64,000 nucleotides of DNA, from contig NC_018719.1 of the NCBI RefSeq assembly GCF_000303155.1, positions 2,542,001 to 2,606,000 of the forward strand. The letters are read 5' to 3'. This document shows positions 15,964 to 25,095 of the stretch, piece after piece. The position numbers and the translations under genes are program-made. The first letter of the stretch is position 1. Each line of letters opens with the position of its first letter. This DNA comes from Candidatus Nitrososphaera gargensis Ga9.2 (GTDB taxonomy: Archaea; Thermoproteota; Nitrososphaeria; Nitrososphaerales; Nitrososphaeraceae). Under the pieces are notes generated by a model. That model had not been told where the DNA came from, did no database searches, and saw only the letters and a list, made by a program, of their open reading frames with translations.

Positions 15964-18606
15964 CTAGATGATAGAGCAGCCACGGCAGATTATCTTGCTC
16001 TTGATAAGCCCCTTTTTCTGCGAGCAGTTGCTGCATACCTTCCTGTTGCAAATGCTGCAAGTGCCACTATGGTTGGCACATGCAGGAGACCGGCATATCT
16101 CGCACCGGATATAGTGAGCAGCGCAGAAGGTAGAGCTGCAAATATAGCATATCGCGCGGTGTTCCATGCATGCCGGCTCTAGGCACATCTTGCAGTACGC
16201 AAGGTGGGTACTGCATAACAGGTTGCCGCAACTACAGATCGAGCCTTCTGCGAGTGCTACTGAGCATGAAGAGCACCTGCCCCACGTCCCCTGCCCGGTG
16301 TAGGCGCTCCACATCACGTCGCCATAATGCTCTTTTGAATCATTCACAAGGATCCTAGCTCGATATACTGTCTCAACAAGCCAGCCGGTGATGCCAAAGC
16401 TTGTCTTGCTCTTGATGTTGCCAAGCGCCTGATGGAACCTTTCTTTTTCTTCATGTTGTATATCTTTCAGCTCGTCTTCAAGCGCCTTTCTGTTGGTGTG
16501 CAGCTGCTCTATCTTCCTCCTTGTTGACAATATCCTTTGTTTGTTTGTATCAATTCTGTTTTCTATGGATATCAGGCGCGGCTTGAGGCTCTTTTTCTTC
16601 TTGCTTTCCTTCTTTACATCCTTGTATAGCTTTTCGTATTCTTTTACCGTGTCAATGTCAGTGTTGATTGATTGCTGCAATTTTGCAACCTTTTCATCAA
16701 TGTTGGCAATCTTGGCGCGAGGCTTTTCTGATCTTGCTGCAATGTTCTCCTTTCTTTTTTCTTCAATCAGAATGTCAAACTTGTGCCTGAGCTCTTTTTC
16801 AATTCTGTTGACTGCCTTTTGGATTTCACCTTTCCATGCCTCGGCCTCTTTGCGCGTTTCTGCAGGGACAAGGCGATGTGAAGTTATGATGTGCTCCTCT
16901 GGTATATCGACAAGACCATCGTCGTCGCCGATGGCAGCAAACTCTACTATCTTATCAAGCGACTGTTTGGCATAACCTTTTTCAAAAACTGAGACGTTCA
17001 GCTCAAAGACAGGATAGAATCTTTCCTCCGGCTCTACCGATAGCACCTTGATCGATCTGAGGTTGCTTCCAAGCTTGATAAAGCTGGACAGGTCCTTTGG
17101 CTCAAACTTCTTTTCCAGCAAGAGGAATGTTTCGTCGTCGCTTGCAGCCAACACTATTGGGTCTTCATGCGCTACAACAGGCAGCAGGAGCCTGGCCGGC
17201 TTTTCCGGCTCTTCTTCAATTATAGGTTCTTCTTCTCTCCCTTCCTCCTCCTTTTCAGCAACGGGTTCACTTTTCTTAAACTCAGCCATCAGTTGGGCTA
17301 TCTCGCTGTTCTCAAGTGGTCCCCTGTGGTATGTCAGGGTCCACCTCGACTTGATGACGCCTCTGAACTTGGGATCAAAAGTGTTGCAGAAAAATTCGCC
17401 TGGCCGCAGCCTTGCGATTTCCCTTTCTGCGTCGGAATCGAGCTCCAGCCCCACGCTTACGCGCTGGATGTCGCGGTGCGCGCCAAGCCTCCCGATAAAG
17501 CGAACATTGGCGTTTGAAATCACCTTGTAGTCCAAGTCGACTGCGTTCTGGCTTGCAAGGAGCATCCCTAAGCCAAACGCCCTTGCCTGTTTGATCAGCA
17601 GCAACAGCAGCTTCTTGGAGGGCGGCTCTCGGACAGGCGGGCAGTAGCCGGCGATTTCATCAAAATACAGAAGGTAGCGGAGCGTTTGCGCGCTGCCCTG
17701 CTTGATCAGCCATTGGAACAGCTGCTGTAGTATCAGCTCGACAAACAGGTGCTTTTCCTGCTCTGACTGGATGTTGCGAAGATCCAAGATATTGATGGAT
17801 GGGCTGTTGAACAATTCTGAGAAATTAATTGATTTAGCTGACGACCATGACCGCAGCTTTGGATCTGATATTAGCAGATTTATTCTTGTTACAAGGTCTT
17901 TCCTTTCCTTATCGGATACTACCTTGGAGACTGGAAGCGAGCCGACATAGCTGAATGATGGGCTTTCAATATTCCTGATGAGGTCTTTTACCGTGAGGCT
18001 CTCGCCGTTTTTCCACGCGTTCTCAAGGATTGCAGAAACGAAGGTTACTTGCTTTCTGTCACTTTCTCCATAGCCTGCAAGACGGAGGAGGTTGAAAGAA
18101 GTGAGGTCAAGCAGATCCGCAGCCGAAGCAATGTCGGTGCTCAGCAGCTGATTGAAATCTTTTGGGGCAGATAGGTCAGGTGAAATTCCGACTGCAAGCC
18201 CGGCCGACGACTTTGGTGTAAAAATCCTGACGGTCACTTTATCAAAGTTTGCAGCTGCGTTTGGCGCTACCTTAAATTCAGCTGCCTTGTCGCGGTACGT
18301 TTTCTGCAGGCTGGCAGCATATTTTGCCCTGTCAATTTTTAGTGCATCCGCCTCCTTACCAGACCATGTTGAGAAATCGAAACTGACTGACTTGAATGCA
18401 AGGTTGCCGATGTCGCCTTTTGGATCGATGGCAAAGGTCGGAATCCCCTGCAACGCGGCCTCTTCCACAATGACCTTGGAAAGTACTGTCTTGCCAGAGC
18501 CGGTGGCTCCAAGGATTATCGCATGTTTTGTAAGCGACGCACGGTCAAGCTCAAATTTTGTGCCATCTATTGCCTGTCCTATATTGAATTTGGCAGGGCT
18601 GTCCAA
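15964..18606 (-). CDS. HerA/FtsK-superfamily ATPase with coiled coil and C-terminal zinc-finger cluster
   Basis: The 880-residue protein has a HerA-type ATPase core: Walker A GATGSGKT at 33-40, and Walker B RYLLYFDEIAGYCPP near 310-325, followed by the sensor region ARAFGLGMLLASQNAVDLD. A Glu-rich linker comes next. Residues about 590-730 are strongly coiled coil. The last 110 residues hold some 20 Cys/His in CxxC and CxxxCxxxH arrangements (for example CSSCSVALAEGSICSCG), like stacked B-box/RING-type fingers. HerA ATPases pump DNA, often with NurA or other nucleases; no such partner lies next to it. The three-part architecture suggests a DNA-handling machine with its own protein- or DNA-binding tail. 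Confidence 0.85.
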   Translation of the reverse strand: MDSPAKFNIGQAIDGTKFELDRASLTKHAIILGATGSGKTVLSKVIVEEAALQGIPTFAIDPKGDIGNLAFKSVSFDFSTWSGKEADALKIDRAKYAASLQKTYRDKAAEFKVAPNAAANFDKVTVRIFTPKSSAGLAVGISPDLSAPKDFNQLLSTDIASAADLLDLTSFNLLRLAGYGESDRKQVTFVSAILENAWKNGESLTVKDLIRNIESPSFSYVGSLPVSKVVSDKERKDLVTRINLLISDPKLRSWSSAKSINFSELFNSPSINILDLRNIQSEQEKHLFVELILQQLFQWLIKQGSAQTLRYLLYFDEIAGYCPPVREPPSKKLLLLLIKQARAFGLGMLLASQNAVDLDYKVISNANVRFIGRLGAHRDIQRVSVGLELDSDAEREIARLRPGEFFCNTFDPKFRGVIKSRWTLTYHRGPLENSEIAQLMAEFKKSEPVAEKEEEGREEEPIIEEEPEKPARLLLPVVAHEDPIVLAASDDETFLLLEKKFEPKDLSSFIKLGSNLRSIKVLSVEPEERFYPVFELNVSVFEKGYAKQSLDKIVEFAAIGDDDGLVDIPEEHIITSHRLVPAETRKEAEAWKGEIQKAVNRIEKELRHKFDILIEEKRKENIAARSEKPRAKIANIDEKVAKLQQSINTDIDTVKEYEKLYKDVKKESKKKKSLKPRLISIENRIDTNKQRILSTRRKIEQLHTNRKALEDELKDIQHEEKERFHQALGNIKSKTSFGITGWLVETVYRARILVNDSKEHYGDVMWSAYTGQGTWGRCSSCSVALAEGSICSCGNLLCSTHLAYCKMCLEPACMEHRAICYICSSTFCAAHYIRCEICRSPACANHSGTCSICNRKVCSNCSQKKGLIKSKIICRGCSII

Positions 18607-19267: not shown

Positions 19268-19942
19268 TTAGAGCAGCCGATAACGCAGCAAAAGCTCGCC
19301 AGTCTTTTTCCTCTCTACCTTGACCAGCTTGAGCCGTATTCCCTGCGCGATTTCATCAAAGCCGTCACCTTCAACAAGCGTTGTTGCCAGCCTACCGCCA
19401 GCTATTCGTGGAGCAATTGTCACGGTCAACTCATCAACAAGCCCAAGGCGCAAAAGAGACCAGTTGAGCTCGCCGCCGCCCTCAACAAGTATTCTTCTGA
19501 GCCCCATCTTTTCCAGCCTGCGAAACAGCTCTTTCAGGTTGACTCCATGAGGCACGGCAGCGCTCTGACCCTTTTTTCCTTCGCTTATGACAAGCACCTT
19601 AGCGCCCATGTCCTCTAGCTTGTGTATTTTTTCCTCTGGCGCTTGATCTGTGACTGCCACGATAGTCTTGATCTTGGACGCCGTGCGCATTATTTGTGAA
19701 TCAATCGGAATTCTTCCCCTGCTGTCAACAATTATTCTGGTTGGATTTTTGCCCTTGACCAGCCTTACTGTGAGCTGGGGATCGTCTGCCAAGATCGTCG
19801 AAATACCTACTACTACTGCATCAACGGTAGCACGCAGCTTGTGAACGCGCACAAGATCCTCTTTTGAGGAAATTTTCGAGTCTCCGCTTGCAGTAGCGAT
19901 CTTGCCATCAACTGTCATTGCGCCGTTCATTATTACCCTCAA
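19268..19942 (-). CDS. arfC: 2,5-diamino-6-(ribosylamino)-pyrimidinone 5'-phosphate reductase (riboflavin)
   Basis: The 224-residue protein is of the RibD C-terminal/DHFR-like reductase family. It reduces the ribosyl side chain to ribityl with NADPH, early in archaeal riboflavin synthesis. Diagnostic blocks are NGAMTVDGKIATASGDSKIS, VDAVVVGISTILADDPQLTVR, NPTRIIVDSRGRIP and RRILVEGGGELNWSLL. Length fits archaeal MJ0671-type enzymes. Its start overlaps the end of the amidohydrolase gene by 4 bp, so the two are translationally coupled within the rib cluster. Confidence 0.9.
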   Translation of the reverse strand: MRVIMNGAMTVDGKIATASGDSKISSKEDLVRVHKLRATVDAVVVGISTILADDPQLTVRLVKGKNPTRIIVDSRGRIPIDSQIMRTASKIKTIVAVTDQAPEEKIHKLEDMGAKVLVISEGKKGQSAAVPHGVNLKELFRRLEKMGLRRILVEGGGELNWSLLRLGLVDELTVTIAPRIAGGRLATTLVEGDGFDEIAQGIRLKLVKVERKKTGELLLRYRLL

Positions 19943-21138
19943 TTTATTGCCTCCACAAATCGCCCGTCGATCATGACAGCTCTGATTGAGTTCTGGCTCA
20001 GCCTGTGAACTACTGCGGCATATGGGTCGTGCATAGGGTACAGATCTACATGCTTTTTGTCAACGAATATCAAGTCTGCAGCGCGGCCAGCCTCTATGCA
20101 GCCAGAATTCAGCCGGAGAATTTGCGCGGCGTTTACAGTTGCCATTTTTAACAGCTGGCGCGGCTCTATCATTTCTTCACCTTCAGTTGCCCTTGATGCT
20201 TTCCAGATGTAATCCAGCTCCCTCAAGATGTCCGGCGAGTTCAGCATCACGTTGTCTGTGCCAATGGCCACTAGGCAACCGTGCCTGAGCATCAGGGCAA
20301 CCCTTGGCATGCCTGCACCCAGCACGCCATTTGCCCTTGGGCAGACTACAATTCCTGTTCTGTTTTTTGCAGTAACTGAAATTTCGTCTTCTGTCGCATT
20401 CGCCATGTGCACTATAAAGTCTGGTTTCAAGTGATCCATCACCCTAGCGACTTCGCTTCTGCCAGTGTGCGCCTTTGAAAACTCGACCGTTTCTTTTGAC
20501 TCGGCAGCATGTATAGCGACCAATTTTTCTCCTGCCAATTGTCTATATTGCGAAAGCGCCATGTCGGTGTTTTCATTTGCACCACTAATTCCAAGTCCAT
20601 CTGCGATCTCTAGCACTTGCTGGGTCTGCCCTATTGCTTCGGGCGGCAGGCCTGCAACATCTTTTGGGTTGCTGTAATAATTTGCTCTGCCAAGCGCCAC
20701 GCATTTTACTGGCAGATCTGCGATCGCATCTCTCAAGAGCTTTACTCCCCCCGGTCCGTCTTCTCTAAAGTCGGCAAAGGCAATGATGCCTTTTTTCATC
20801 ATCGATATAGCAGAATTCCGGATGAACGCCTTTAGGTGCTCTGGCTGGCTCTTTTGCAGGATCTTCTTTTTTGCTCCAAACACAGGATGGACACGCGCAT
20901 TGAGCCGATGGCCGGCAGCAATGTCCTTCCCTATTGAGTCTGCGATATGAGTGTGTGCGTTGATAAATCCTGGTATGACCAGAAACCCGCTGGCGTCCAG
21001 CTTCTTCCTGCCAGGGCCTCTGTAGCTGCCTGCAGCAGCGCTCTTGATTCTTCCGTCCTTGATCTCGACGTATCCCTTCTCAACATAATCGAGCTCTTTG
21101 CCCAACAACAGGCTGGCGTTGGTTATGACTAGAGACAT
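19939..21138 (-). CDS. amidohydrolase (ATZ/TRZ-type deaminase family) embedded in the riboflavin operon
   Basis: The 399-residue metal-dependent hydrolase has all ligands of a deaminase-type amidohydrolase: PGFINAHTHIADS (HxH), IHAAESKETVEF, a third His in IVHMANATEDEI, and Asp in AIGTDNVMLNS. Composite-domain beta strands flank the barrel. Relatives deaminate guanine, S-adenosylhomocysteine, methylthioadenosine or related ring amines. It overlaps arfA upstream (10 bp) and arfC downstream (4 bp), so it is tightly coupled to riboflavin synthesis. I infer that it may perform the pyrimidine deamination step between these enzymes. A generic SAH/MTA deaminase role is the alternative. Confidence 0.85.
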   Translation of the reverse strand: MSLVITNASLLLGKELDYVEKGYVEIKDGRIKSAAAGSYRGPGRKKLDASGFLVIPGFINAHTHIADSIGKDIAAGHRLNARVHPVFGAKKKILQKSQPEHLKAFIRNSAISMMKKGIIAFADFREDGPGGVKLLRDAIADLPVKCVALGRANYYSNPKDVAGLPPEAIGQTQQVLEIADGLGISGANENTDMALSQYRQLAGEKLVAIHAAESKETVEFSKAHTGRSEVARVMDHLKPDFIVHMANATEDEISVTAKNRTGIVVCPRANGVLGAGMPRVALMLRHGCLVAIGTDNVMLNSPDILRELDYIWKASRATEGEEMIEPRQLLKMATVNAAQILRLNSGCIEAGRAADLIFVDKKHVDLYPMHDPYAAVVHRLSQNSIRAVMIDGRFVEAIN

Positions 21139-21881
21139 CGTATTTCATATATTGGTTGGATTTTTCCTTGCTTGCGCAGGTCTCTAATGGTGTCAAGAGC
21201 CTTGGTCGCCCCCTCTGCTGCCATTCTGCCTGTTTTACCTATGCCTATTCCGCAGTTGAGCTTGATATCGATTCCTGCTGTTACTTTTTTTATTACAGCG
21301 TCTGTCTGCTCTTTTGTCACGCCGTTTGAGATGACCATAAAGTTGTCGCCGCCAAGGAAGAACGTGAGTGCGTTGCGTTTGAGGAACTCTTCAGCAAGCC
21401 TGCTGTAGATCTTCATAACCAAGGCAGTTATTTCATATGGCGACAGGCGATCGCCCACCTTTGTCGAGCTATCGACATCGATGTGCATTATCTGCGCCAT
21501 GTCGGCGTCATCAAGAGCATTGCCAAATATTCTGGCTTCATTATCAAGCATCCTGCCCTCTTTTCTTGCATTGTAGGCGTTCAAGTTCGCTTCAAACGCG
21601 GTCTTGCCGGCGCCGATCGCCATGGACATCTTTAGGTCGTTGTACAGCTCTGCCAGCTCGCGCTGTATCTCCTTGTGGTCCAGAGCATCAAGGCCGTTCG
21701 TTATTGCAAAATACTCATCGAACCTGTTGAAGAAGACGATGCAGTTCTTTTCTGAAAAGAGCCGCTGCACGTCATGGTAGATTTTTGCCTGTAGCATCTG
21801 CAGTTGTGCTTCCCTGTCGCTTCCAAGCGTGACCGTCCAAGGCCCGTATCCTTCGATCCTAATTATTGTCAGCTGTATCAT
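21129..21881 (-). CDS. arfA: GTP cyclohydrolase III (archaeal, forms FAPy)
   Basis: The 250-residue protein matches archaeal GTP cyclohydrolase III, which opens GTP to 2-amino-5-formylamino-6-ribosylamino-pyrimidinone phosphate, the first step of archaeal riboflavin and F420 chromophore synthesis. Key blocks: MIQLTIIRIEGYGPWTVTLG, NRFDEYFAITNGLD, MSMAIGAGKTAFEANLNAY, and FFLGGDNFMVISNG near residue 165 (the second palm-domain copy with its GGDN metal site). It overlaps ribH by 23 bp upstream and the amidohydrolase by 10 bp downstream. Confidence 0.93.
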   Translation of the reverse strand: MIQLTIIRIEGYGPWTVTLGSDREAQLQMLQAKIYHDVQRLFSEKNCIVFFNRFDEYFAITNGLDALDHKEIQRELAELYNDLKMSMAIGAGKTAFEANLNAYNARKEGRMLDNEARIFGNALDDADMAQIMHIDVDSSTKVGDRLSPYEITALVMKIYSRLAEEFLKRNALTFFLGGDNFMVISNGVTKEQTDAVIKKVTAGIDIKLNCGIGIGKTGRMAAEGATKALDTIRDLRKQGKIQPIYEIRCL

Positions 21882-22326
21882 TTATTACCACTGTTCCCTC
21901 GCCGACTGCCTTTTGTAGCTTTCTCAGCCGGGCAACCATGTTGACAGCTGCGTTTACAGCTCTCACTGGCACAAGCTCTGCCCGCTCTCTTGCCTGGTCT
22001 ATCGTCATACCCGGCCCCGTTACTCCAAGCGCCACCGGCTTGCCGTGCTTTAGCGACAGGTCTGCTATCAGCCGCGCCGCGTTTTCAGCTACAATGTCAT
22101 CATGTCTTGTGTCCCCTTTTATCACGGCGCCAAGGGTGACTACCGCGTCAATGTTTTTCTTTTTCAGTAACCGCTCGACAGCAAGGGGCATGTCAAAAGT
22201 GCCTGGCACATACAAGACATAGCTCACCTTGGCGCCTATCTTACCTGCATGATTCCTTGCGCGCTCGAGCATCTTGAACGTTATTTCGCTGTTGAACTCG
22301 GAAACCACTATTGCAAGATGTGTCAA
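21859..22326 (-). CDS. ribH: 6,7-dimethyl-8-ribityllumazine synthase
   Basis: I chose a TTG start at 22326 (155 residues), because translation from 22377 would overlap ribB by 41 bp and add a non-conserved head. Conserved blocks: AIVVSEFNSEIT (substrate pocket), VPGTFDMPLAVERLL, VTLGAVIKGDTRHDDIV with the catalytic His region, and PVALGVTGPGMT. It condenses the ribityl-pyrimidine with dihydroxybutanone phosphate. The start falls 11 bp after the ribB stop. Confidence 0.9.
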   Translation of the reverse strand: MTHLAIVVSEFNSEITFKMLERARNHAGKIGAKVSYVLYVPGTFDMPLAVERLLKKKNIDAVVTLGAVIKGDTRHDDIVAENAARLIADLSLKHGKPVALGVTGPGMTIDQARERAELVPVRAVNAAVNMVARLRKLQKAVGEGTVVINDTADNN

Positions 22327-22336
22327 CAATTGCCAG

Positions 22337-23017
22337 CTATGCCACCTTGGCATGAGCTTTGAGCTCGCTTGCATCAATCAATGGGATGTTGAACTTGTCC
22401 GCGTATTCTTGTGCGTCTTCGATCGAAAGCGCCTTGTGCGTGTCAGAATCCATCATTTCACACAGGGCAACTGCAGGCGTGAGCCCTGCAAGCTGCATCA
22501 TGTAAACACACAGCTCGGTATGACCCATCCTGTCCTGCAGCAGGCGCTTTGACGCTATCAGAATCGGCACATGGCCCGGCGCGCGGAAATTCTTGGCAAA
22601 GTCATCCACGCCGCCATCGTCAATTTTCTTGCAGACCTGTGCCATCTTGGATATCGTCAACGCCCTGTCATGATCGGTGATGCCAGTGTACGTCGAGCGG
22701 TGGTTGACCGAAATCGAGAATGATGGCTTGTCGCCGTATGCTGCCCTGCCTTCTGTCAATTTTGAAAATACAGGGTTTACCTTACCCATACTGGCGATCA
22801 TATCATGCATATAGACAAGCCCTAGTTTTGTTGTAATGTTGTTTGCAATCGCAAGGCACACAAGGCCGCCGGCATCCTTCCGCATCGTTACAATGTGATG
22901 CGGCTTGACATACTCTGCCGCAACCACCATGTCGATCTCGTTCTCGCGTCCCTTGCCGTCGTGAACGAGGACGAACTTGCCGGCCTTGAGAGCAGCTATT
23001 GCTTCAGTAAGAGACAA
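22337..23017 (-). CDS. ribB: 3,4-dihydroxy-2-butanone 4-phosphate synthase
   Basis: The 226-residue enzyme makes the four-carbon unit of lumazine from ribulose 5-phosphate. The signature is complete: FVLVHDGKGRENEIDMVVAA (acidic Mg site), HHIVTMRKDAGGLVCLAI, SFSISVNHRSTYTGITDHDR and RAPGHVPILIAS. It starts at a TTG (23017). A TATA-like box lies on the minus strand about 28 bases upstream. First gene of a tightly packed run ribB-ribH-arfA-amidohydrolase-arfC. Confidence 0.93.
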   Translation of the reverse strand: MSLTEAIAALKAGKFVLVHDGKGRENEIDMVVAAEYVKPHHIVTMRKDAGGLVCLAIANNITTKLGLVYMHDMIASMGKVNPVFSKLTEGRAAYGDKPSFSISVNHRSTYTGITDHDRALTISKMAQVCKKIDDGGVDDFAKNFRAPGHVPILIASKRLLQDRMGHTELCVYMMQLAGLTPAVALCEMMDSDTHKALSIEDAQEYADKFNIPLIDASELKAHAKVA

Positions 23018-23474: not shown

Positions 23475-24068
23475 CTATTTTGGCAGATTGCTGGCAACAT
23501 ATTTGCCAAGAATATCTGTCTCGATGTTCACCCTGTCGCCCTTGCGCCTCAAGCCCAGCGTTGTTACGCTCAGAGTGTGAGGGATGAGCGATACAGAGAC
23601 GCGATCGCCGTCAATATCTACCAGTGTGAGGCTGACGCCGTCAACCGCTATCGAGCCCTTTGAGACAAGCGATCCTGCCAGCCCCTTGTCCAGCTTTATC
23701 CAGAGCTTTGTCTCGGACGGCAACTTTTGAATGTCCTCAATGATGCCAGTGCCGTCCACGTGACCCAAGACAAAGTGACCCTCAAGCCTGTCGCCGACTT
23801 TCATGGATCTTTCGATGTTCACCTTGTCGCCGGCCTTGACCTTGCCAAGGTTTGTTCTCCTTATCGTTTCAGCCACCATCTCAAACTCGGCTTCGCCTTT
23901 TGAGAGTTTCGTCACCGTAAGACAGGCGCCGTTTATGCAGACGCTGTCGCCACGCTTGAGACTGCGCCCAAGCCTGCCGAGGCTGACCCTCATAATGGTG
24001 TCTGCCCCTCTTTTGCTCTTTGAGACAGACCTGACTCTGCCCATTCCCTCGACAATGCCGGTGAACAT
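23475..24068 (-). CDS. ribE: riboflavin synthase, bacterial/eukaryotic (RibE) type
   Basis: The 197-residue protein has two tandem lumazine-binding barrels. Each begins with the typical pattern, MFTGIVEGMGRV and FVLGHVDGTGIIEDI, and contains VCINGACLTVT and IAVDGVSLTLVDI with VSLIPHTLSVTTLG. It dismutates two lumazines to riboflavin. Most euryarchaea use an unrelated archaeal riboflavin synthase, so the bacterial-type enzyme is a lineage trait here. It starts on ATG at 24068 and shares an AT-box region with the divergent HDAC-like gene. Confidence 0.93.
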   Translation of the reverse strand: MFTGIVEGMGRVRSVSKSKRGADTIMRVSLGRLGRSLKRGDSVCINGACLTVTKLSKGEAEFEMVAETIRRTNLGKVKAGDKVNIERSMKVGDRLEGHFVLGHVDGTGIIEDIQKLPSETKLWIKLDKGLAGSLVSKGSIAVDGVSLTLVDIDGDRVSVSLIPHTLSVTTLGLRRKGDRVNIETDILGKYVASNLPK

Positions 24069-24090
24069 GTACCCTGTCTAATGGATGTTG

Positions 24091-24100
24091 AATATTTATT
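24091..24100. promoter_or_regulatory. shared AT-box between divergent ribE and HDAC-family genes
   Basis: AATATTTATT sits about 27 bases upstream of both start codons (24068 minus, 24127 plus) and reads as a TATA element in either direction. A single box may serve both genes. Confidence 0.45.
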
Positions 24101-24126
24101 TGCAATCTCTCGCATTCATATGCTGT

Positions 24127-25095
24127 ATGTGCCAGATAGCCGTGTTTTACGGTGAGGCGCTTGCAAGGTATGGGTTCGAGGGATCGCACCCGTTTGGCAC
24201 CGACAGGCTGGGTGCGTTCTGGTCCAAGTTGCAGAGTGAGAATGTTGACAACATAGTCGTAGAAGAGCCGATGCTTGGGACCGACCAAGACGCGCTTTCA
24301 TTTCACGACAAAGAATATGTCGATCTTGTCAGAATGGCATCGAGACATGGTGGCGGCATGCTGCTAGACAGGGGTGACACTCCGGCGTTCAAGGGCGTCT
24401 TTGAAGCGTCGCTCTATGTTATCGGATCAACTCTGGCTGCGCTAGACATGGTGGTAGCCGGCAAGGACAGCAAGGGAAGAAAGATAGACCACGCGTTCAA
24501 TCCGATCGGAGGGTTGCATCATGCCCGGCGCGACACCGCCGGCGGCTTTTGCGTATTCAATGATATCGGAGTGGCCATCCTTGCCGCGCGCAAAAAGTAC
24601 GGGATAAATCGCGTGATGTATGTCGACATCGACGCGCACCACGGCGATGGCGTCTTTTACGAGTTTGAAGATGATCCATTGCTGTTCTTTGCAGACATTC
24701 ACGAGGACGGCAGGCATCTTTATCCGGGCACAGGTTCTGCAAGTGAAATTGGAAAAGGGACGGCAGCAGGGACGAAGCTGAATTTGCCGCTGGAGCCAGG
24801 CGCCGGCGATGACGAATTCATCAAGGCGTTTGATAAGGTCGAGCAGTTTGTCGACGGCATCAAGCCTGAACTTATAATACTGCAGTGCGGCGCTGACGGG
24901 CTGGCCGGCGACCCAATAACGCACATGCAGTACAGCCCGGCAGCTCATAGATATGCGGCCGATGCATTGCATAGATTGGCGCACAAGCATTGCATGGGAA
25001 GAATAATTGCACTTGGCGGAGGAGGCTATAACAGGGCAAATATTGGTGCAGCATGGACTGAAGTTGTACGTTCATTTGCTATGGCGAAGCCGTAA
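24127..25095 (+). CDS. histone deacetylase / acetoin-utilisation (AcuC) family hydrolase
   Basis: I chose the ATG at 24127 (322 residues, MCQIAVFYGEALARYGFEGS); the frame is open slightly earlier. The zinc-dependent arginase/deacetylase fold is clear: GGLHHARRDTAGGFCVFNDI (catalytic HH pair), YVDIDAHHGDGVFYEF (Asp/His zinc ligands), ILQCGADGLAGDPI and LGGGGYNRANIGAAW. Archaeal members deacetylate Alba-like proteins, acetyl-CoA synthetase or small acetyl amines; the substrate cannot be told here. Confidence 0.9.
   Translation: MCQIAVFYGEALARYGFEGSHPFGTDRLGAFWSKLQSENVDNIVVEEPMLGTDQDALSFHDKEYVDLVRMASRHGGGMLLDRGDTPAFKGVFEASLYVIGSTLAALDMVVAGKDSKGRKIDHAFNPIGGLHHARRDTAGGFCVFNDIGVAILAARKKYGINRVMYVDIDAHHGDGVFYEFEDDPLLFFADIHEDGRHLYPGTGSASEIGKGTAAGTKLNLPLEPGAGDDEFIKAFDKVEQFVDGIKPELIILQCGADGLAGDPITHMQYSPAAHRYAADALHRLAHKHCMGRIIALGGGGYNRANIGAAWTEVVRSFAMAKP

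Follow-up and report, generated by a model that had tools for sequence, protein, structure and literature searches.

Deamination is served by one of the last unassigned enzymes in archaeal flavin and F420 synthesis. The archaeal pyrimidine reductase has been reported to act before this step (PMC3403918, PMC13028884). A candidate family has been predicted. In table 6 of PMC8305020 (2021), HVO_2483, which is 34% identical to MJ0699, is listed as a prediction for a gap in archaeal riboflavin synthesis, credited there to the comparative genomics of Rodionova et al. 2017. In that table (PMC8305020), the entry comes after arfC and before the phosphatase gap, so that by elimination the deamination is presumably the step for which HVO_2483 and MJ0699 were put forward. 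Loss of arfA by deletion is known to make Haloferax volcanii auxotrophic for riboflavin (PMC8305020). Our literature search found no biochemical proof or assay of the archaeal deaminase step.

The amidohydrolase analyzed here (AMD) can be compared with several described systems. It belongs to the same NF005552 family as MJ0699 and HVO_2483 and has invariant columns in common with them; however, the copies of Methanocaldococcus jannaschii and of haloarchaeal plasmids lie outside rib clusters, whereas those of Nitrososphaeria and Sulfolobales lie inside. The RibD N-terminal domain and Rib2 (PF00383, CDA fold) carry out the deamination proposed for AMD, and Rib2 acts after the reductase, as is also proposed for AMD, but their fold and active site are unrelated. 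The COG0402 aminohydrolases (5'-deoxyadenosine/SAH deaminases, DadD, TM0936, and 8-oxoguanine deaminase) are of AMD's superfamily and have the same metal-binding and catalytic residues, but they form a separate clade, and AMD has invariant residues of its own (D67, K90, E126, and N296). The formamide hydrolases ArfB and BrbF act in the same pathway as AMD, and the ArfB gene adjoins arfC in some relatives, yet both their creatininase fold and their step differ from those of AMD. The bacterial counterpart BrbF is a creatininase homologue too (PMC9478397).

The riboflavin operon and its host genome

The window, a 64,000-nucleotide stretch of the genome of Candidatus Nitrososphaera gargensis Ga9.2, was analyzed using its open reading frames together with Pfam and NCBIfam profiles, which revealed the operon ribB-ribH-arfA-AMD-arfC (Table 1). 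The arfA and AMD frames share 10 bp (ATGTCTCTAG), in agreement with the first-pass annotation. The 4-bp overlap (TTGA) that the same annotation had described between AMD and arfC is present if arfC starts at the TTG at position 19942, whereas it disappears with the alternative ATG at 19930, which lies four codons (twelve bases) inward and leaves an 8-nt gap to AMD. This overlap depends on the start codon, and the two genes abut whichever start is used. The ribE gene is located 457 bp upstream of ribB on the same strand and probably belongs to a transcript separate from the ribB-to-arfC operon. The surroundings of the operon contained neither an FMN riboswitch nor any other Rfam element.

Table 1 Features of the riboflavin locus and of the AMD protein, in window coordinates.
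Feature	Position	Strand	Evidence or conservation
AMD, amidohydrolase	19939-21138	minus	intact ORF, 399 aa, ATG start; PF01979 150 bits; NF005552 324.7 bits
arfA, GTP cyclohydrolase III, step 1	21129-21881	minus	GCH_III PF05165 203 bits
arfC, archaeal pyrimidine reductase, acting just before the proposed deamination	19268-19942	minus	TIGR01508 211 bits, cut-off 186
ribH, lumazine synthase	21859-22377	minus	TIGR00114 137 bits
ribB, DHBP synthase	22337-23017	minus	TIGR00506 213 bits
ribE, bacterial-type riboflavin synthase	23475-24068	minus	PRK09289 219 bits
HTH motif, metal ligands H62 and H64, barrel strand 1	20947-20955	minus	invariant: 55/55 AMDs, 7/7 paralogs
K90, AMD-specific; candidate substrate/phosphate contact	20869-20871	minus	K in 55/55 AMDs; I in 7/7 paralogs
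E126, AMD-specific; putative role as in text	20761-20763	minus	E in 55/55 AMDs; F/Y in paralogs
HAAE: H210 metal ligand, E213 proposed aminohydrolase proton shuttle	20500-20511	minus	55/55 AMDs
H244, metal/water-contacting His	20407-20409	minus	55/55 AMDs
R268 in CPRxN, AMD-specific, near-invariant; putative role as in text	20335-20337	minus	R in 53/55 AMDs, 0/7 paralogs
D295, catalytic Asp, and N296, AMD-specific (G in paralogs)	20251-20256	minus	55/55 each

Several features around the operon were recorded. The ribE product is a riboflavin synthase of the bacterial, lumazine-binding RibE type and not of the archaeal RibC type, the latter being known from M. jannaschii. Downstream of the operon and on the same strand, positions 15964-18606 encode a HerA/FtsK-like ATPase of 880 aa whose C-terminal tail is rich in cysteine, and a histone-deacetylase-family protein (24085-25095) is divergent from ribE.

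The host genome sequence, one 2.83-Mb contig (99.85% complete), was then searched for enzymes that could act in the same steps. The first-pass annotation had stated that the cluster lacks a RibD-type deaminase domain; with the PF00383 profile, the RibD N-terminal deaminase was absent from the cluster and also from the whole genome. Only two proteins matched PF00383. One is ComEB/dCMP-deaminase-like, the other is 423 aa long and matches no NCBIfam model, and the RibD-type motif PCxHxGRTPPC was found in neither. Three proteins matched PF01979, namely AMD, the urease alpha subunit, and a dihydropyrimidinase/dihydroorotase-like enzyme; given the identity of the other two, AMD is the only deaminase-type (COG0402) member in the genome. 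Two SAH hydrolases are encoded as well and, with no other COG0402-type deaminase present, a role in SAH/MTA metabolism is therefore unneeded. The PF02633 proteins of the genome are encoded away from the operon, and one of them, a creatininase-family protein (210 bits), can serve as ArfB.

Family, active site, and proposed reaction of AMD

The score of AMD with NF005552/PRK07213 ('chlorohydrolase') exceeded the curated cut-off of 294 bits, which makes it a member of that family, and the PF01979 match spanned its full barrel. In the Pfam search, AMD matched neither PF00383 (CDA type) nor PF02633 (creatininase fold). A structural model predicted from a two-sequence alignment (the window protein and one relative) reached a pLDDT of 37 and was discarded.

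In the M. jannaschii genome, where the matched stretch of PDB 2AZN (MJ0671) was present letter for letter, AMD was located at 624703-625827, beside MscS-like, primase-large-subunit-like (priL), and polymerase-small-subunit-like (polB) genes and not beside rib genes. We take these neighbors to be MJ0700-MJ0702, and because of them the Methanocaldococcus AMD appears to be the published candidate MJ0699. The window protein and the M. jannaschii AMD were 35% identical over 394 positions and had 15/15 invariant columns in common; the M. jannaschii AMD was likewise 35% identical to one haloarchaeal member. The first-pass annotation had put AMD forward as a candidate for an unassigned archaeal step. 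The deaminase reading is supported in silico, but the idea itself is not new, as MJ0699/HVO_2483 are already listed in table 6 as predicted enzymes for a riboflavin gap (PMC8305020), and AMD is a well-supported member of this known candidate family.

Alignment of 55 AMDs with 7 paralogs revealed a conserved catalytic core. All the deaminase-type ligand motifs named in the first-pass annotation were present, HTH (residues 62-64), IHAAE (209-213), VHMAN (243-247), and GTD (293-295), and the residues H62, H64, H210, E213, H244, and D295 were invariant in AMDs and paralogs alike. D67, K90, E126, and N296 occurred in 55/55 AMDs and 0/7 paralogs, and R379 was present in 49/55 AMDs. In a tree of the same sequences, whose outgroup is narrow (the paralogs are euryarchaeal only), AMDs and paralogs were split on one branch with a support of 100/100. 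This residue pattern would fit enzymes that have kept their type of reaction but act on a different, plausibly anionic substrate.

AMD might also be a deaminase of the SAH/MTA/5'-deoxyadenosine or guanine type parked in the operon, since it belongs to the same superfamily as these enzymes and weakly matches their NCBIfam models. However, the scores lay far under the respective cut-offs: 109.5 bits versus 522 for 5'-deoxyadenosine deaminase, 112 versus 609 for PRK06038, 61.7 versus 375 for guanine deaminase, and 59.2 versus 779 for a further SAH/MTA/5'-deoxyadenosine-type equivalog model; AMD was far below the cut-offs of the other deaminase NCBIfam models as well. The SAH/MTA-type paralogs form their separate clade and lack D67, K90, E126, R268, and N296. 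Together with the two SAH hydrolases of the host and the exact co-occurrence of AMD with ArfC in the order Nitrososphaerales (see below), this makes such an assignment very unlikely.

We considered that AMD is instead a metal-dependent aminohydrolase that carries out the deamination in archaeal riboflavin (and F420) synthesis, with an estimated probability of about 0.86. Both its membership in the riboflavin pathway and its reading as the deaminase of that pathway are strongly supported on the basis of gene context and sequence conservation, from which we also infer its substrate, reaction, and residue roles. AMD would act on the product of ArfC, 2,5-diamino-6-ribitylamino-4(3H)-pyrimidinone 5'-phosphate, and hydrolyze its C2 amino group to yield 5-amino-6-ribitylamino-2,4-pyrimidinedione 5'-phosphate and ammonia. 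If it works like amidohydrolases of the adenosine/cytosine-deaminase type, water would be activated by a single divalent metal bound to H62, H64, H210, and D295, E213 with H244 would shuttle protons, and attack of the water on C2 would expel ammonia. The residues D67, K90, E126, R268, and N296 may recognize the phosphorylated ribityl-pyrimidine. In most archaea, homologues would have this role, for which bacteria and fungi use an unrelated deaminase of the CDA fold. The deaminated, dephosphorylated product of the pathway also feeds F420 synthesis.

Two further assignments within the pathway were weighed against this one. In the first, AMD is the phosphatase that produces the substrate of lumazine synthase. 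This function would fill a remaining archaeal gap given in table 6 (PMC8305020), and the superfamily includes some phosphoesterases; however, the HxxE-H-D site conserved in AMD is typical of aminohydrolases and not of these phosphoesterases, the deaminase step would be left without an enzyme, and the probability of this assignment is close to nil. The second assignment follows the bacterial order of steps, with AMD deaminating a ribosyl compound before ArfC acts. The deamination chemistry would be identical and the gene order arfA-AMD-arfC is compatible with it, but in archaea the reductase has been reported to come first (PMC3403918, PMC13028884), and we give this order of steps a slim chance.

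Synteny and distribution of AMD among archaea

The sample for the order Nitrososphaerales comprised 121 genomes, from which the best 30 AMD loci were fetched. Conservation of AMD next to arfA and arfC, which the first-pass annotation had proposed to check, was borne out: AMD adjoined arfA and/or arfC in all 30 of these loci, and the linkage extended beyond the class. The full arrangement ribB-ribH-arfA-AMD-arfC was present in 21 of them; the remaining loci were interrupted by contig or locus ends, with three exceptions: two had no arfC within 1.5 kb, and in the third it was approximately 1 kb away. Open frames overlapped in nearly all 30 loci, and the operon arrangement is not due to chance. 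Co-occurrence was checked by scoring AMD with NF005552 and ArfC with the C-terminal half of the TIGR00326 profile; 64 of the 121 genomes had both proteins, and the other 57 had neither. Full-length RibD above the cut-off was found in 0/121 genomes of the order.

Two genomes of the window's genus (G079 and G101, 93-99% complete) had neither AMD nor ArfC, which suggests a joint loss of riboflavin genes. In G101, a RibD-N-like deaminase match and a weak AMD-like amidohydrolase were located about 1 kb apart.

An ArfB-type creatininase gene directly followed arfC in five of the 30 loci, with AMD also present, so that in these five operons the deformylation step is already staffed. This bears on the possibility that AMD is a formamide hydrolase deformylating the ArfA product as an alternative to ArfB, which the first-pass annotation had not considered. 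AMD directly follows arfA, whose product requires deformylation, and amide cleavage is within reach of members of the amidohydrolase superfamily. However, besides the five relatives, a Bathyarchaeote also has ArfB straight after arfC in its AMD-containing operon, the host genome has its own creatininase-type ArfB candidate, and the active site of AMD is of the HxxE aminohydrolase type. Formamide hydrolysis was excluded separately in this way, through ArfB, as highly improbable, which favors the deaminase assignment.

Across Thermoproteota, an ArfC-type protein was present in 146 of 299 genomes, and 132 of these 146 also had AMD when NF005552 was combined with a profile built from 25 AMDs (A2). 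NF005552 alone misses divergent AMDs of Thermoprotei and left 38 genomes seemingly AMD-less, 24 of which were recovered by the 25-row profile. The gene orders varied. Sulfolobales-like genomes (L211-L215) have ribB-ribH-arfA-AMD, two loci (L221 and L222) have arfC-arfA-ribB-ribH-AMD accompanied by an ArfB-type gene, others (L224-L228) have arfC/AMD pairs, and the Bathyarchaeote contig JdFR-04 has RibH-ArfA-AMD-ArfC-ArfB. The linkage of AMD with rib genes survives reshuffled gene orders in both Thermoproteota and the Bathyarchaeote. AMD was also found at >220 bits in 27/27 genomes of the phylum of Methanocaldococcus and in 17 of another 19 genomes with ArfC, most of them Methanobacteriota.

At E<=1e-40, the AMD family was detected in 4/4 archaeal and 0/10 bacterial control genomes, and full RibD scored above its cut-off in 10 of the 14 controls, presumably the ten bacteria. 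M. jannaschii and S. acidocaldarius were absent from the PF00383 matches among the control genomes. No PF00383 deaminase was found in M. jannaschii, two Sulfolobales-like genomes, and four other AMD-bearing genomes; the first three have AMD and ArfC without a cytidine-deaminase-type domain. According to a 2026 review, the later riboflavin steps are common to archaea and bacteria (PMC13028884), a statement contradicted by the absence of RibD in these archaea.

Exceptions were found among the AMD-less genomes of Thermoproteota. One of them (L265, genome G362), from a genus that otherwise has ArfC only, encodes a bacterial-type GTP cyclohydrolase II-RibD fusion. The bacterial route was apparently imported there, as a replacement of AMD predicts. 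Thirteen ArfC-bearing genomes had neither AMD nor RibD: six from one genus of family f18, four from one genus of f35, and three singles. Two of the thirteen were examined (L278 and L284); their ArfC-like gene had a TrpD-like gene (Glycos_transf_3) in its neighborhood but none of ribB, ribH, and arfA. Its product still scored above the TIGR01508 cut-off, and it may be a RibD_C paralog acting on another pathway.

It is likely that archaea, domain-wide, use this non-homologous, metal-dependent amidohydrolase instead of RibD/Rib2, a second invention for a core vitamin step that would predate the split of Thermoproteota from methanogens and halophiles, with minority lineages having later replaced AMD, for example, by the GTP cyclohydrolase II-RibD fusion. 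If confirmed, the deaminase assignment would close the gap at once for ammonia-oxidizing archaea, methanogens, and Sulfolobales, correct many 'chlorohydrolase' annotations, and provide a clear case of two unrelated folds serving one vitamin step in the two prokaryotic domains.

Plasmids yielded distant bacterial amidohydrolases only, apart from haloarchaeal AMD copies (L173-L175) that were located away from rib genes. A likely essential vitamin gene is plasmid-borne in these haloarchaea, on pNRC200 of Halobacterium salinarum and on others.
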